64,000 bases of DNA from Acidobacteriota bacterium (GTDB lineage: Bacteria > Acidobacteriota > Terriglobia > Bryobacterales > Bryobacteraceae), in assembly GCA_014584705.1 (NCBI GenBank), contig JACTMJ010000009.1, positions 1-64,000 of the forward strand, written 5' to 3'. This document shows, in pieces, positions 1 to 63,478 of this stretch (the stretch's first letter is position 1; each line of letters opens with the position of its first letter). The translations under genes and the position numbers were made by a program. Under the pieces are notes generated by a model, which was not told the DNA's origin, searched no databases, and saw only the letters and a program-made list of their open reading frames with translations.

Positions 1-501
1 GCCGGTGCAGGTTTCCTGGAACTCCATCAGGCGCTCCCCGCCCAGCCCGTAGAACATGTAGGTGACCGTATTCCCGCTGCGCACGAAGACCCGCTGGTTA
101 GCGTGATTGTAGCCGTAGCTCTGCGCCCCCGCTCCGGAATGACTCGACGTCACCATTCTGTTGGCTACATCGTACCCCATCGTCATCAGCGGCATTTGCG
201 TCAGGTTGCCGTTGGCGTCGTATTGATGGCCAGCCGTTGCGATGCGGTTCGTCGCCGCGTCGATGGCCACGCTGTGCGTGGGGGCGCTGCCCTTGGTGAC
301 GGTTTGGTTGGTGCGGTTGCCGAAGCCGTCGTAGCTCCACGCGAGGCCCCACGCATTGCTCACGGTCTCCGCACTTACCAATCGCTGCAGCGCGTCGTAT
401 TGATAAACCACCGTCTCCGCGCTCACCGCGTCGGTTTGCGAAAGGATCTGGCCGTTGTTCCCGGTGGCGTGAAACGCGTAGGCGGCTGCAAGCAGTGCTG
501 A
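1..501 (-). pseudogene. RHS/YD-repeat protein fragment (orphan core module)
   Basis: Reading the minus strand from 501 gives an open frame that runs off the window edge at position 1. It is full of RHS/YD-repeat signatures: NNGQILSQTD at the start, then VYQYDALQRLV, WSYDGFGNRTNQT, HQYDANGNLTQMP, GYDVANRMV and FYGLGGERLMEF. The frame opens directly after the TAA stop of the DUF4288 gene and is in the same reading frame, with no ATG, GTG or TTG and no ribosome binding site near its beginning. RHS proteins are normally very large secreted or surface toxins carrying a variable C-terminal toxin. This piece starts abruptly inside the conserved core, so it is most likely a displaced rhs core left by recombination. 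The remainder, possibly with a toxin tip, lies outside the window. It could be translated only by readthrough or reinitiation. Confidence 0.75.
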
Positions 502-57121: not shown

Positions 57122-58030
57122 TTAGGTGTGGATTCGCGGCTGTGATTCCGTGAGTTCCGCCGGCGAATCTCCCGGCACCAGATCGAGAATCGTCACTTCC
57201 GGCCGGCAATTGAACCGGATCCCGCCATAGACCCCGCCCACTCCGCGCGTGATGTAGACGCGGCGTCCTTGCCATTCGTGCAGCCCCTCGTAATAGGCGC
57301 GATCGAGAATCGGCAGAATCGGCGGACCCACAAACGGAATCTGCACCTGACCGCCGTGCGTGTGCCCGCAAAGCAGCAGTTCCCAGGAGTAGTATTGCAG
57401 CACCGCTTTGGTATCCGGGTTGTGCGAGAGCACCACGCGCAACTGCTCGGATTGTTTGGGGAGGCCGTCGAAAGCCTTGTGGGAGTCAAACTCGCGCGTC
57501 CAGAAATCGGCAAGCCCGATCACGTGCAGGCGCTGGCCCTTGATTTCCCGTTCCGTGGCGGCGTTCTGCAGCACGTGAATTCCGGCGTCCGAGAGCAGTT
57601 CCCGGATGCGGGCGGAGGTTTTGAATCCGTACCGCAGATCGGACCATCGCCCGCCGTCGTGATTGCCCACCGAAGCAAACGTGGGTGCAGCGGTGGGGAA
57701 CGCCGCCAGAACGTCCCTGTAGCGATAGAGATCGCAGCTTGTATTTGTGGTCACATAGTCGCCGGTGAGGCAAATAAGGTCCGGCTTTTGCGCGAGGCCG
57801 AGTGCAATTGCGTGCTCGATCCGGCTGAAGGGGATCGCGGGCGAGGCGTGAAAATCCGAGAGATGAAGCACACGGAGGCTCGTGCCGCGCGGAAGCCAGC
57901 GGGTGGGAATGGTGGTTACCGTCAGGTCGAACCAGTTGGGCTCCGCGCCAAACACGTAAGAACCCGATGCCAGACTCCCAGCCGCAACGGCCCCTCCGGC
58001 GCGCAGCAGTGTTCGGCGGGCAATTTGCAT
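57122..58030 (-). CDS. Metallophosphoesterase with Tat signal
   Basis: This 302-residue enzyme starts with a Tat-type signal (ARRTLLRAGGAVAAGSLASG). The calcineurin-like metal-binding motifs follow in order: LHLSDFHAS near 56, LTGDYV near 88, GNHDGG near 122, VLSHNPD near 200, and GHTHGGQ near 221. It is of the YkuE/LpxG type. LpxG-like enzymes cleave UDP-diacylglucosamine in lipid A synthesis, but export to the periplasm makes that unlikely. It is probably a periplasmic phosphodiesterase of unknown substrate. Confidence 0.88.
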   Translation of the reverse strand: MQIARRTLLRAGGAVAAGSLASGSYVFGAEPNWFDLTVTTIPTRWLPRGTSLRVLHLSDFHASPAIPFSRIEHAIALGLAQKPDLICLTGDYVTTNTSCDLYRYRDVLAAFPTAAPTFASVGNHDGGRWSDLRYGFKTSARIRELLSDAGIHVLQNAATEREIKGQRLHVIGLADFWTREFDSHKAFDGLPKQSEQLRVVLSHNPDTKAVLQYYSWELLLCGHTHGGQVQIPFVGPPILPILDRAYYEGLHEWQGRRVYITRGVGGVYGGIRFNCRPEVTILDLVPGDSPAELTESQPRIHT

Positions 58031-58161: not shown

Positions 58162-60309
58162 ATGCGCATGGGACGGTGCCGGATCTTGTTGCTCGCGGTG
58201 GGCCTCGCCCTGGGTCCCAGCCACCCTCTGTTCAGCCATCCGCAAAGCGCGCCGGATCCCGGCCTGTCCCGCGCAGCCCTTGCCTATCAGGCGAAGCAGG
58301 CGCGCGAGTTCGACCGGGCCGTGGCCCTCTTCGAGGAGGCGCTGGCGGCGGATCCGGAGAATCTCCACCTGCGAAAAGACCTCGCCTATACGTTGCTCGC
58401 GGTGGGCAAAAGCGAACGCGCCCGCGACGAATTCGGCGAGGTGCTCCGGCGCGATCCGAACGACAGCTACATCGCGCTGGAATACGCCTTCCTCTGCCAC
58501 GAGACGAATCGCCCCGAGATCGCGTGGAAGATCTTCCGCGGTTTGCAGGGAGCCGCCAACCCGGAACATCGCGCCACGGCAACGCGGACCTTCAAGAGCA
58601 TGGATGCCGAACTCCTCGGCCGCATCGCGCGCCTGGAAGAAGCGCTCCGGCGTGACCCGGGCAACTATGGCAGCCATCTCGAACTCGCGCGAGCGCGGCG
58701 AATCCGCAATGACTACGCCGTGGCCGCCGCTGAGTTCGATGCCGCGTATCGTCTGAAGCCGCAATATGCCGAGGTCCTCCTGGAGTTGGCGGACGTTCTT
58801 CGCAAAGCCGGCGAGCGGGAACGGGCCGAGGCGGTAACGCTCACGGCTTCCCGCTGCGCATCGGCCTATGTCGCGGAGCAGGCGAAGCAGTTTCTGCCCC
58901 CACGCTATCCCTATCTTTCGGAGTTCGAGAATGCGCTGCGTTTCGAGCCCCGGCAGCCGGAACTACGCCGGGAAATGGGCTTCTTCCTGCTTTCCCTGGG
59001 CCGTAAGCCGGAGGCGCAGGCGGCGCTTGAGCGGGTGTTGACGGAAGATCCGGACGACCTGCTGGCCGCCGCGCAGTTGGGGTTCCTCGAACTGGAACAG
59101 GGGCGGCGCGACACCGCCATCCCGCGTCTGAGAGCCGCGCTTCGCACCACGGACAACGCTTTGCGGCAACGCATTTCAGACTTGCTCTCAAAGGAAGGTG
59201 CGCTTGAAGCGCAGCCGGGGGCGGCAACCATTTCCCCGGAAACCGCTACGGAGATACCGGCGGCCACGCTCTCAAAGAGCTTCGCGGATGCGGAGTCCGC
59301 ACGAGAAATGGGCCGCAAGAGTTACGATGCCGGCTTCATTCCGGACGCCATTCGCTTCTACCAGGAGGCGCAGCGGCTGGACTCCGCAAATTTCGACACC
59401 ATGCTGCGCCTGGCCTGGAGCTTGAATATGGGCAAGCGGGACGACGAAGCGTTGCGCTGGTTCTCCCTGGCCGCGCGCAGCCCGGATACGGCCGTCGCGG
59501 AAGAAGCAAAAGCCGCCATTCGCAATCTCACCACGCCCGCCGCTTCCTCTTCCGCGATGGTCGCCGCAGCTCCTCGCGAGGGCCTGGTGGCCAGCCTCTG
59601 GGCAATGCCGCTCCATTCCACGCGCTGGGGCAGCACGTTCAGCTATGCCCAGGCGAAACTCGAATGGGAACAGCCCCGCCTGCCCGTGGTGCCATACCTC
59701 TCCGTGCGCTTCGTGGGTGATACCACGGGCGCAATCGGCGCGGCCAATCCGCAGTTCCTCTCGGAGAATTCATTCATCCTTGGGCTGGGGGCGCGCACCC
59801 GACCGTGGAAGGGCATCCTGGCCTGGGGCGAAGCCGGTTCCACCATGGCGTATCTCTCCTCCCGCCGCCAGGAGACGGGCCGGTTTCTTCCTGATTATCG
59901 CGGCGGGCTGTCGCAATTCCGCCTCTTCGGCCCTTCCTTGCTGAATGCCAAGTCAGGCGCGTTCGCGGAAACGATGAACGACCTCGTCTACATCCATCGC
60001 TTTGACCGCGATACCCTGGCCATTTCGCGCAACCGGCTGGGGAGGCATCTCGGCCGGATCGATTCGCTGGGAGGCTTACAGTTACAGGCCTTCCTGAGCC
60101 TGAACCTGAATACCGACTTCAAGCGGCAGGCATGGGCGAATTTCGTGGAAGCCGGGCCGGGCCTGCGGCTTCGCTGGGCCTGGATGCCTCCCTCGGTATC
60201 GTTCACGTTCCACTATCTGCGCGGCCATCACACCATCCGCCGGATCGACGAGCGCCCGAACACCTACAACGACTTCCAGGCGGGTTTCTGGTATGCCGTC
60301 ACCCGCTAG
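58162..60309 (+). CDS. TPR outer-membrane protein with C-terminal beta-barrel
   Basis: This 715-residue protein has a signal peptide (RILLLAVGLALGPSHPLFS). Residues ~30-450 are TPR-like helices (EFDRAVALFEEALAADPENLHLRKDLAY; GYLE-type repeats). Residues ~490-715 look like amphipathic beta strands ending in an aromatic C-terminus (FHYLRGHHTIRRIDE... FQAGFWYAVTR). This two-part architecture matches PgaA, PelB and BcsC exopolysaccharide porins and NfrA-like proteins. The stop overlaps the start of the next gene by 17 bases, so the two are translationally coupled. Export of a polysaccharide is inferred. Confidence 0.75.
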   Translation: MRMGRCRILLLAVGLALGPSHPLFSHPQSAPDPGLSRAALAYQAKQAREFDRAVALFEEALAADPENLHLRKDLAYTLLAVGKSERARDEFGEVLRRDPNDSYIALEYAFLCHETNRPEIAWKIFRGLQGAANPEHRATATRTFKSMDAELLGRIARLEEALRRDPGNYGSHLELARARRIRNDYAVAAAEFDAAYRLKPQYAEVLLELADVLRKAGERERAEAVTLTASRCASAYVAEQAKQFLPPRYPYLSEFENALRFEPRQPELRREMGFFLLSLGRKPEAQAALERVLTEDPDDLLAAAQLGFLELEQGRRDTAIPRLRAALRTTDNALRQRISDLLSKEGALEAQPGAATISPETATEIPAATLSKSFADAESAREMGRKSYDAGFIPDAIRFYQEAQRLDSANFDTMLRLAWSLNMGKRDDEALRWFSLAARSPDTAVAEEAKAAIRNLTTPAASSSAMVAAAPREGLVASLWAMPLHSTRWGSTFSYAQAKLEWEQPRLPVVPYLSVRFVGDTTGAIGAANPQFLSENSFILGLGARTRPWKGILAWGEAGSTMAYLSSRRQETGRFLPDYRGGLSQFRLFGPSLLNAKSGAFAETMNDLVYIHRFDRDTLAISRNRLGRHLGRIDSLGGLQLQAFLSLNLNTDFKRQAWANFVEAGPGLRLRWAWMPPSVSFTFHYLRGHHTIRRIDERPNTYNDFQAGFWYAVTR

Positions 60310-62350
60310 CCTCCGGGCTCTCCGGTTAGCGGGAATTCTGCTGCTTTGCGCTAGCCTTTCGCGAGCGGCCGGTGCGCAGTTCAGCTACGCCGCGAGTTGT
60401 GACGCCCCCGGCTGGGAAGCCGTATTCGATACCTTTTCGCTTTCACGCGCTGCCGAACCTACCAGAGCGGACATCCGCGTGCTCTGCGGCCCCGCTCAGG
60501 GCAGCCGCGCGGAGATCGATGCCTGGCTCGCGCCGGGGCGCATTCTCGTCGTGGAGGGCGGGAATCCCCTCGCCGCTTCATTCGGCTTCGTACCCTCCGG
60601 CGCGACGCCGGTCCGCGTGCGCAATGGGAAGGATCATCTCGCGGAGGAACTCCTCATCGTGTGGGAGAAACCCGTCGAGATCGTCCCCACACGGATGCCT
60701 CCTGGCGCACGCGTCCTGATGGAGGAGCGCTGGAGCGGCGCGCCCCTGCTGGCCGTGCTGCCGCTCGCGCGCGGCAACCTGCTCTGGGTGGCGACCGAAC
60801 CCGGAGAGCGCGGGTTCGACCGCTTTCCCCTGCTCGCCAATGCCCTGGCGGAGGCGGGCTTCCATGCGCCCTTCCGTTCACGAACGCTGTGGGCCTTCTT
60901 CGATTCGGCCTATCGCCAGCGCGTGGATCTCGACTATCTGGCTGCCCGCTGGGAGCGCTTTGGCGTTGCCGGTCTGCACGTCTCCGCCTGGCAGCATTGG
61001 GAGCCGGATCGCGACAAGGATGCGTGGTTGCGCAGGTTGATCGAGGCCTGCCATCGCCGCGGCATCCTGGTCTATGCATGGTTCGAGTTCCCTCACGTCA
61101 GCGAAAAATTCTGGGCGGATCACCCGGAGTGTCGGGAGCAGACGGCGCTCCTGCAGGATGCGCATCTCGATTGGCGCAAGCTGATCGATCTCAGCAATGC
61201 CGAGTGCGGCGCCAAGGTGAAGCAAGGGGCGGCTTCGCTGCTGCGGCGCTTCTCCTGGGACGGTGTGAACCTGGCGGAGATCTACTACGAATCGCTTGAA
61301 GGGACGCAGAATCCCGCGCGGTTTACTCCCATGAGCGCCAGCATCCGCAAGCAGTTCGCTGAAGATGCGGGCTTTGACCCCGCCGAGCTCTTCAGCCCGG
61401 CATCGCCCCGGCACCTGGCCCGCAACCCGGCCGGCCTGGAGCGCTTCCTCGCCTTTCGGCGCAAACGTATCGGCCAACTTCACGAAGAGTGGCTCGCCTT
61501 CGTGGAAAGTCTCCAATCCACGGTGCGGGACCGGCGCCTGGTGATTACCCAGATCGACGATCAGTTCGACCCATCCGTGCGTGCGAATCTGGCGGCCGAT
61601 TCCGGTGCGATCCTCGCCCTGATGTACCAGCATTCCTTCACCTTTCTGGTGGAAGATCCCGCCACCATCTGGCACCTCGGCCCCGCCCGCTACACGGAGA
61701 TTGCCCGCGCGTACGCGAAGGTGACGCCCTATCCGGAACGCCTGGCCGTGGATATCAACATCTTTCCGCGCTATCAGGACGTCTACCCCACGAAGCGCCA
61801 GACCGGCATCGAACTCTACCGTCTGGTGCACGCCGCCGCCCGCGCCTTCCCGAGGGTTGCCTTGTACTTTGAGCACGTGCTGGCCACCGAGGATCTGCCG
61901 TTTCTGGCCGCGGCCGCGCTGCCGGAGGTGAAGGCGTATCGGGAGGGGGAGCGCGTGACCGTCGAGAGTGCGCGGCCCGTTGGCATTGCCTGGAATGGCC
62001 CCGCCCAAGTGAACGGGAGCGCCTGGGCCGCACGCGACGACGAAACCGTGTGGCTGCCCGCGGGCAAGCACCTTCTTGAACCGGGAAGGGAAGACCCATT
62101 GTTGCGACTGCGCTACTTCAGCGGGGAGTTGCGCCGCGTGCATAGCGCCGCTGGCCGGCTCACCTTTCACTACCACGCGGAAGCGCGGGCCATCGCCATC
62201 TTCAACGAGGCGCCCGGCAAGCTCTGGATTGACGACCTTCAGATCGCCGCACCCGTCTATCAGGCAGCAAGCGGCTATTACCTGTTTCTGCCCGCCGGAG
62301 AGCATCTCGTGACCGTGGAAGCAGGAGCCAGTGTGCATCCTGGTTCCTGA
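60293..62350 (+). CDS. Secreted glycoside-hydrolase-like protein
   Basis: This 685-residue protein has a signal peptide (LAGILLLCASLSRAAGA). From about residue 200 it resembles a GHL10-type TIM barrel: WAFFDSAYRQRVDLDYLAARW, GVAGLHVSAWQHWEPD, IEACHRRGILVYAWFEFPHV, then FSWDGVNLAEIYYESLEG and LVITQIDDQFDP. Acidic residues in these strands could be catalytic. The first 180 and last ~120 residues are beta-rich. It follows the TPR-barrel protein gene with a 17-base overlap. This gene order recalls PgaA-PgaB and PelB-PelA, in which a periplasmic hydrolase trims the exported polysaccharide. It might cleave or modify a polysaccharide passing through that porin. No exact family can be assigned. Confidence 0.7.
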   Translation: MPSPASLRALRLAGILLLCASLSRAAGAQFSYAASCDAPGWEAVFDTFSLSRAAEPTRADIRVLCGPAQGSRAEIDAWLAPGRILVVEGGNPLAASFGFVPSGATPVRVRNGKDHLAEELLIVWEKPVEIVPTRMPPGARVLMEERWSGAPLLAVLPLARGNLLWVATEPGERGFDRFPLLANALAEAGFHAPFRSRTLWAFFDSAYRQRVDLDYLAARWERFGVAGLHVSAWQHWEPDRDKDAWLRRLIEACHRRGILVYAWFEFPHVSEKFWADHPECREQTALLQDAHLDWRKLIDLSNAECGAKVKQGAASLLRRFSWDGVNLAEIYYESLEGTQNPARFTPMSASIRKQFAEDAGFDPAELFSPASPRHLARNPAGLERFLAFRRKRIGQLHEEWLAFVESLQSTVRDRRLVITQIDDQFDPSVRANLAADSGAILALMYQHSFTFLVEDPATIWHLGPARYTEIARAYAKVTPYPERLAVDINIFPRYQDVYPTKRQTGIELYRLVHAAARAFPRVALYFEHVLATEDLPFLAAAALPEVKAYREGERVTVESARPVGIAWNGPAQVNGSAWAARDDETVWLPAGKHLLEPGREDPLLRLRYFSGELRRVHSAAGRLTFHYHAEARAIAIFNEAPGKLWIDDLQIAAPVYQAASGYYLFLPAGEHLVTVEAGASVHPGS

Positions 62351-62368: not shown

Positions 62369-63478
62369 TTACTTGGCGGCGGGCTGGATGGCTTCGGCTA
62401 TCGGCTTGCCTGTCTTCGGGAACGCGGCGTGATAGTCTTCTCCGAGCAATGCCGCCAGCGTGGCCGCAACCTGGCTCTGCGTCACCGGTTCCGCGTTCGC
62501 GCGCTCCCCGAGCGCCGGAGTATCCGGACCCATGATTCCCATCCAGACATACTTCGATTCCGGGACCTTCTGGCCATGGCTGCGCCAACTGGCGCCCTCG
62601 GCGCCCCGACCGTGGTCGACCGCCAGAATGAGCGTGGTCCTGCCCCGGTACTGGTCCATGGACTGGGCCAGATTCCAGAGTTCTTCCACGTAGCGATCCA
62701 CGCGGTGGGCGGCGTTCAGATACAGGTCGTACCGCCCGCCGTGCGCCCATTCGTCCGTTTCGCCCAAGGCCAGATAGAACACGCGCGGCCGGGCCGTGCG
62801 GAAGTATTCTTTGGCCAGCAAAAACACCGGCGCGTCCTGCGCTTCCGACCCCCAGATATCCGTTTCCGCTTTCACCCGGTTCAGCAGATCAATGCGGTCG
62901 TTGGGCGTGTTAGTATGCAGGGGCGTATAACCGTCGTTCACCAGCAGCCCGGAGCGCCTGGAGTTCAGAATGTAATAGAAGCGATCCCAGGCGCCGAATG
63001 CGGCGATGCGATTTCGGAAGGATTCCCGCGTGTTCAGCCATTCGAGCACGTTCACGTTCGGATTGTCGATCTGGTCATTGCTGTTGATCCGGTCGTCGGG
63101 CGCACCCGTCAGCAACTCGCTATAGCCGGGATACGAAAAGTTCATGCCGTTGGTCACGTAGGCATCGGAGCCACGGTCTCGGTTGCCGTAGAGCACCCCG
63201 TGTTTGGCCACCGTCTTCCAGACGAAGGGCATCAAGAGTTCCCGGCGCTCTTCCGGCGAATCTCTCCAGAAGCGTGCCTTCAGCGCGTCCGGGTTGGAGA
63301 CACCGCCTGTCGTCTTGTTGATCTGGGCTGGATCCGCACCGCGAAAGAGGTCTTCCCAGCGCAATCCGTCGGTGGTCACCAAGATGACATTTTGGGTCTG
63401 TTTACCCGAATTCTGTGCCAGTCCGGGATATGCGCTCAATGCGGCGCCCGCTGCTGCAAGAAAGCTTCGCCGATCCAT
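62369..63478 (-). CDS. Alkaline phosphatase superfamily protein, Tat exported
   Basis: This 369-residue enzyme begins with a Tat-like signal (MDRRSFLAAAGAALSAYPG). It has the alkaline phosphatase superfamily metal-binding pattern: LVTTDGLRWEDLF near 34, NFSYPGYSELLTG near 115, GETDEWAHGG near 240 and AVDHGRG near 288. The segment SYPGY, where sulfatases have C/SxPxR, lacks the Arg, so it is not a formylglycine sulfatase. It is probably a periplasmic phosphatase or phosphodiesterase. It converges on the glycoside-hydrolase-like gene with 18 bases between. Confidence 0.85.
   Translation of the reverse strand: MDRRSFLAAAGAALSAYPGLAQNSGKQTQNVILVTTDGLRWEDLFRGADPAQINKTTGGVSNPDALKARFWRDSPEERRELLMPFVWKTVAKHGVLYGNRDRGSDAYVTNGMNFSYPGYSELLTGAPDDRINSNDQIDNPNVNVLEWLNTRESFRNRIAAFGAWDRFYYILNSRRSGLLVNDGYTPLHTNTPNDRIDLLNRVKAETDIWGSEAQDAPVFLLAKEYFRTARPRVFYLALGETDEWAHGGRYDLYLNAAHRVDRYVEELWNLAQSMDQYRGRTTLILAVDHGRGAEGASWRSHGQKVPESKYVWMGIMGPDTPALGERANAEPVTQSQVAATLAALLGEDYHAAFPKTGKPIAEAIQPAAK

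Follow-up and report, generated by a model that had tools for sequence, protein, structure and literature searches.

A conserved overlapping gene pair in Bryobacteraceae encodes a predicted TPR-beta-barrel protein and a TIM-barrel hydrolase with possible roles in a surface-polysaccharide pathway

We analyzed the first 64,000 nucleotides (the window) of contig JACTMJ010000009.1, which is contig C6 of the 4.88-Mb genome GCA_014584705.1 from an Acidobacteriota bacterium of the family Bryobacteraceae, order Bryobacterales. The window holds two overlapping genes whose predicted products are obligately linked, secreted-type proteins: a tetratricopeptide repeat (TPR) protein with a predicted 12-stranded beta-barrel, and a predicted TIM-barrel hydrolase whose acidic pocket is conserved without exception (Table 1). 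We read the pair, with a probability of roughly 0.5, as the outer membrane and periplasmic end of a polysaccharide pathway of the synthase-dependent type, similar to PgaA-PgaB or PelB-PelA.

The pairing is conserved throughout the order. We found the hydrolase in 132 of 150 genomes, among them almost every genome of the window's family (f1) and 3/17 of a second family (f2), and a profile of the barrel alone matched 128 of the 150, every one of which also holds the hydrolase. Both genes are missing together from 18 genomes, and in the four genomes with a hydrolase and no barrel (G089, G107, G130, and G135) the hydrolase matches are on contigs that are short or fragmented, or consist of a degraded fragment. 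The barrel gene lies immediately upstream on the same strand in 104 of 111 hydrolase loci, a set that includes some genomes taken from two collections. Most of the seven loci without an adjacent barrel gene are at contig ends; one, L075, is intact and matches genome G148, which retains both genes on different contigs in intact contexts, where they were parted by rearrangement. Conserved pairing had been proposed as a critical test in an earlier note, made from the window's sequence alone, and it is borne out by these counts. No third conserved gene was found within 8-kb flanks of the pair.

The earlier note had also described a 17-bp overlap between the two open reading frames (ORFs), which we recovered. 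The hydrolase ATG arises from TAT-GC read across the terminal Tyr-Ala of the barrel. Among 82 distinct homologues with the Trp-Tyr-Ala motif, which are related to one another (protein identity, 40-50%) and so are not independent draws, this tyrosine is encoded by TAT in 81 (101/102 before deduplication), versus 39% (369/952) for other barrel tyrosines and 26% (53/202) for Tyr-Ala at other places. Because TAT is so much more frequent at the terminal tyrosine than elsewhere in the barrel, codon usage indicates that the overlap is maintained by selection, consistent with translational coupling. The adjacency, the strict co-occurrence in the order, and the selected overlap codon together place the gene arrangement far beyond chance.

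A variant of the arrangement occurs in genus g19, where a second hydrolase copy is preceded, with a 4-bp overlap, by a TPR-only protein without a barrel (L160:7132-10037, L161, and L162). This protein resembles the TPR start of the window's TPR-barrel protein. Since the second copy pairs with the TPR part alone and the genes still overlap, it is the TPR domain that stays constant as the partner of the hydrolase, in parallel with PgaA/PgaB (PMC9384988).

The TPR-barrel protein contains strong TPR repeats (Pfam; TPR_19, E value of 2e-29). Its AlphaFold2 model (whole-model predicted local distance difference test [pLDDT], 86; predicted template modeling score [pTM], 0.48) places a helical superhelix before 12 strands spanning residues 474 to 714, in support of the C-terminal beta-barrel noted earlier. 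Foldseek searches with this model returned TPR proteins only, and the barrel family matched nothing meaningful in Pfam or the PDB. Against profiles of E. coli PgaA, NfrA, and BcsC, significant similarity was limited to the TPR repeats, which agrees with the earlier observation that the sequences differ from PgaA. We called the signal peptides of both proteins by eye from their hydrophobic N termini.

The hydrolase was modeled with high confidence (pLDDT, 91; pTM, 0.90). Across 49 relatives, D204, W233, E265, E329, D422, E454, D487, N489, and E527 are invariant in the alignment, and the six candidate acids among them (D204, E329, D422, E454, D487, and E527) line the modeled TIM barrel, so the earlier assignment of a TIM-barrel hydrolase-like protein with catalytic acids held up. 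Foldseek placed the model among TIM-barrel glycosidases, with GH42, GH35, and other enzymes also matching. The PgaB C-terminal domain had the highest target-normalized TM score among the matches listed (0.64-0.68), followed by Cwp19 (about 0.6 of target). By sequence, neither protein has a solved relative in the PDB apart from the TPR repeats, and the hydrolase matched nothing meaningful in the PDB or NCBIfam. Its Pfam GHL10 (PF02638) score was 13 bits against a curated cutoff of 27.9, and GHL10 and GHL6 are both subthreshold. GHL10 is the commonest Pfam family among the relatives (37/49 at E values up to 0.1; best, 3e-7). Of the comparisons proposed in the earlier note, GHL10 gave a match below its cutoff, and GHL13 (the GHL13/GH153 domain of PgaB) was not found genome-wide.

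In a collinear profile alignment with PgaB, E329 of the motif DGVNLAE pairs with the D of DGILFHD. Asp474 is the proposed catalytic residue of Bordetella bronchiseptica PgaB (PMC5933820). The alignment is statistically weak (hhalign probability, 7%), and for this reason we treat E329 as the possible counterpart of Asp474 as a lead, not proof. Glu329 itself is invariant in 49/49 relatives.

The clearest link to polysaccharide synthesis comes from more distant homologues. The hydrolase is rare outside the order, and all clear matches there lie within proteins of about 1290 to 1660 residues. All six of these long fused proteins that we scanned carry an N-terminal DUF2334 domain, which we take to have a polysaccharide deacetylase-like fold. 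The window hydrolase is homologous to the fused proteins over its full length (hhalign E value of about 1e-78, 30% identity), most of its invariant residues are retained, and Glu329 is kept in 9 of 10. By eye, the fused proteins end in a hydrophobic segment. Three Bryobacterales genomes carry a DUF2334-fused copy on top of the pair, and DUF2334 scored above its cutoff in 16/150 genomes of the order. A FastTree phylogeny, whose support values were unusable, separated the 49 paired hydrolases from ten fused ones.

A related family 2 glycosyltransferase (GT2) gene lies downstream of the DUF2334-hydrolase gene in 10/10 loci (L124-L133). In the four scanned, its best NCBIfam match was PgaC_IcaA, below the curated cutoff. 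By these gene neighborhoods, the hydrolase outside the window's family usually occurs in a cluster with a deacetylase-like domain and a putative synthase. Such clusters (e.g., L130:4985-12490 and L128:6598-11738) are possibly synthase-dependent exopolysaccharide systems of their own. In L127, L129, and L130, wecB adjoins the cluster or lies close to it. In the Bryobacterales loci L131 and L132, beta-propeller genes (L131:11777-13851 and L132:12746-14914, the latter with a Solibacter C-terminal domain) lie between the DUF2334-hydrolase and GT2 genes. L129 also encodes a secreted 241-residue protein with the look of a small beta-barrel (L129:6540-7265, minus strand), whose gene overlaps that of the PgaC-like GT2; it had no Pfam match and did not match the window's barrel profile.

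We searched for a synthase that could serve the pair. The nearest GT2s in the window's genome are 31 to 33% identical to the PgaC-like enzyme, and the best score for a PgaC-like GT2 in the flanks of about 80 pairs was 49 bits, versus 579 to 755 for the eight true partners that were complete or nearly so. A CelA/PgaC-like GT2 on contig C25 of the same genome (G000:C25, locus L141) was considered and rejected as the pair's synthase: it occurs in 145/150 genomes of the order irrespective of the pair, and is not diagnostic because each of the 14 f2 genomes without the pair holds it. The co-occurring membrane glycosyltransferase that the earlier note had suggested seeking therefore did not emerge, as none is specific to the pair and the C25 enzyme is near universal in the order.

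In gene order, the pair resembles PgaA-PgaB: a TPR and outer membrane barrel gene directly precedes a TIM-barrel hydrolase gene, whose product is periplasmic in PgaB and presumably so here. The hydrolase fold also matches the PgaB C-terminal domain and shares a "DG..L..D/E" motif at beta-4. Unlike PgaB, which joins a NodB deacetylase to GHL13/GH153, the window pair has no deacetylase domain; it is not linked to PgaC or PgaD, and significant sequence similarity is confined to the TPR repeats. PelB-PelA offers a TPR-barrel exporter with a hydrolase/deacetylase partner and thereby the same split of tasks, although PelA itself combines hydrolase and deacetylase and pelCDEFG are not beside the window pair (none was found among its neighbors; no genome-wide search for pel families was made). 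The L124-L133 clusters share a full-length homologous hydrolase part with catalytic acids retained, but differ in the DUF2334 fusion, the hydrophobic C-terminal segment and, outside the order, the lack of the window's TPR-barrel family. An obligate TPR-barrel and TIM-barrel hydrolase gene pair, the mark of a PgaAB or PelBA analogue, is present. The defining pga and pel features fail, so we do not file the pair as a member of either system; by analogy, the best reading is that it works like them. We found no description of this pair in the literature, nor of DUF2334 as a polysaccharide enzyme.

Several results weigh against this reading. The barrel has no detectable sequence relation to those of PgaA, NfrA, or BcsC by profile comparison, and its 12 predicted strands contrast with 16 in PgaA. 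The profile similarity of the hydrolase to PgaB is weak, comparing its profile directly with that of E. coli PgaB gave no significant similarity, and in Foldseek many further TIM-barrel enzymes match as well as PgaB does. Neither DUF2334 nor GHL13/PgaB was found in the window's genome, and no synthase, deacetylase, or cyclic di-GMP receptor is conserved beside the pair in about 80 loci. The sole GT2 tested does not covary with the pair, and the TPR-barrel was not found in the eight genomes searched outside the order, which hold relatives of the hydrolase with the PgaC-like synthase.

The small barrel could instead suggest glycan uptake or scavenging, in which the TPR-barrel protein would be an oligosaccharide channel and the hydrolase would trim oligosaccharides in the periplasm as they enter or are recycled. 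A predicted 12-stranded barrel is, we assume, KdgM/NanC-like in size and has fewer strands than known polymer exporters, and no synthase is linked to the pair. We consider this unlikely, given that the pair has no conserved neighbor for transport or catabolism, that its single-copy, near-universal presence in the family is unlike that of accessory catabolic loci, and that relatives of the hydrolase adjoin a synthase. The deacetylase-like domain and PgaC-like synthase of those relatives speak for an exported polymer and so also make it improbable that a Cwp19/GHL10-type enzyme remodels an envelope glycan (peptidoglycan or lipopolysaccharide-like) with the TPR-barrel as its outer membrane anchor, a task that does not require an integral barrel. 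The closeness of Cwp19 to PgaB in Foldseek, the prevalence of GHL10 among the relatives, and a near-universal, chromosomally scattered, housekeeping-like distribution would fit such remodeling. Cwp19/GHL10 enzymes share the TIM-barrel fold and a weak Pfam match with the window protein, but the latter falls under the GHL10 cutoff and has another domain context and partner.

Protein secretion, in which the hydrolase would be the cargo of a TPR-barrel acting as a Slam/type XI-like translocon, seems to us the least probable. The TPR and C-terminal barrel gene does adjoin a secreted-protein gene, and the protein has weak Pfam matches to TPR_Slam; a search of the genome for PF04575 (SlipAM, DUF560) came back empty, as did its controls. 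Against secretion, the barrel matches no Pfam family, inspection by eye showed no lipobox in the hydrolase, the g19 copy is coupled to a partner lacking a barrel, and the hydrophobic end of the fused relatives would tether the hydrolase domain to a membrane.

Returning to the polysaccharide pathway, the TPR domain of PgaA binds both PgaB and the polymer and raises enzyme activity (PMC9384988). For the window pair, we infer localization, interaction, activity, substrate, and export as follows. The hydrolase would be periplasmic and seated on the TPR superhelix, where it would bind and endo-cleave the polymer around Glu329, setting chain length or clearing a stalled chain. The TPR groove, meanwhile, would steer the chain to the barrel, through which it would leave the cell. 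The polymer would be made by a glycosyltransferase encoded elsewhere in the genome, unlinked to the pair, and the deacetylation step, provided in cis by DUF2334 in relatives, would not be encoded in the window's genome. Because no membrane glycosyltransferase tracks the pair specifically, we regard the pair as a putative "export module." The earlier analogy with PgaA-PgaB drew independent support from the PgaB fold match and from the clusters of relatives. Of the two options in the earlier proposal of an undescribed acidobacterial exopolysaccharide or secretion system, the second keeps a low probability.

The hydrolase is single copy in the window's genome. No synthase, deacetylase, or PilZ gene adjoins the pair, as noted earlier for synthase, deacetylase, and cyclic di-GMP receptor, because its neighbors are a YaeI-like phosphodiesterase gene and a sulfatase/phosphodiesterase-like gene. 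Elsewhere, an RHS-repeat-like protein fragment was recognized by eye at the contig end (window positions 1 to 426, minus strand). At the start of contig C25, an ORF (L141:2-673) repeats VYQGQGFRPSKA at regular spacing and looks like a translated CRISPR array.

Table 1. Features of the gene pair and its flanks (window positions)
Feature	Position	Strand	Details
YaeI-like phosphodiesterase gene	57122-58030	-	Unrelated flank
TPR/outer membrane beta-barrel gene	58162-60309	+	715 residues; putative signal peptide, residues 1-29
Predicted TPR superhelix, putative periplasmic scaffold	58258-59532	+	Residues 33-457; AlphaFold2 helices, Pfam TPR families
Predicted 12-stranded beta-barrel	59581-60303	+	Residues 474-714; AlphaFold2 strands; orphan family ending WYA(F/V)TR (alignment)
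17-bp gene overlap	60293-60309	+	Hydrolase ATG inside conserved Trp-Tyr-Ala codons (TGG TAT GCC)
GHL10/GHL6-like secreted glycoside hydrolase-like gene	60293-62350	+	685 residues
Predicted N-terminal alpha/beta domain	60383-60862	+	Residues 31-190; weak DUF4350/GH42-trimerization matches in relatives
Predicted TIM-barrel domain	60887-61915	+	Residues 199-541; AlphaFold2, Foldseek
Glu329 codon, candidate catalytic acid	61277-61279	+	End of strand beta-4 (DGVNLAE)
Predicted C-terminal beta-rich domains	61928-62323	+	Residues 546-677; AlphaFold2
Sulfatase/phosphodiesterase-like gene	62369-63478	-	Unrelated flank

Acidobacteriota are dominant in soil, and their surface polymers are almost unknown. 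The pair is a near-universal, single-copy module of a large family in this phylum and combines an orphan barrel with an uncharacterized hydrolase family. Tentatively, it may represent an undescribed, family-wide surface-polysaccharide system of Bryobacteraceae, in which the 12-stranded TPR-barrel exporter family would be new, the hydrolase would found a new glycoside hydrolase family, and the whole would derive from a deacetylase-hydrolase-synthase system whose synthase was split off and whose deacetylase was lost. The analysis also revealed a second undescribed cluster in the same phylum, DUF2334-hydrolase with a PgaC-like synthase. Together, the pair and this cluster suggest that the principle of TPR scaffold plus hydrolase in poly-N-acetylglucosamine (PNAG) and Pel export may reach past the known systems.

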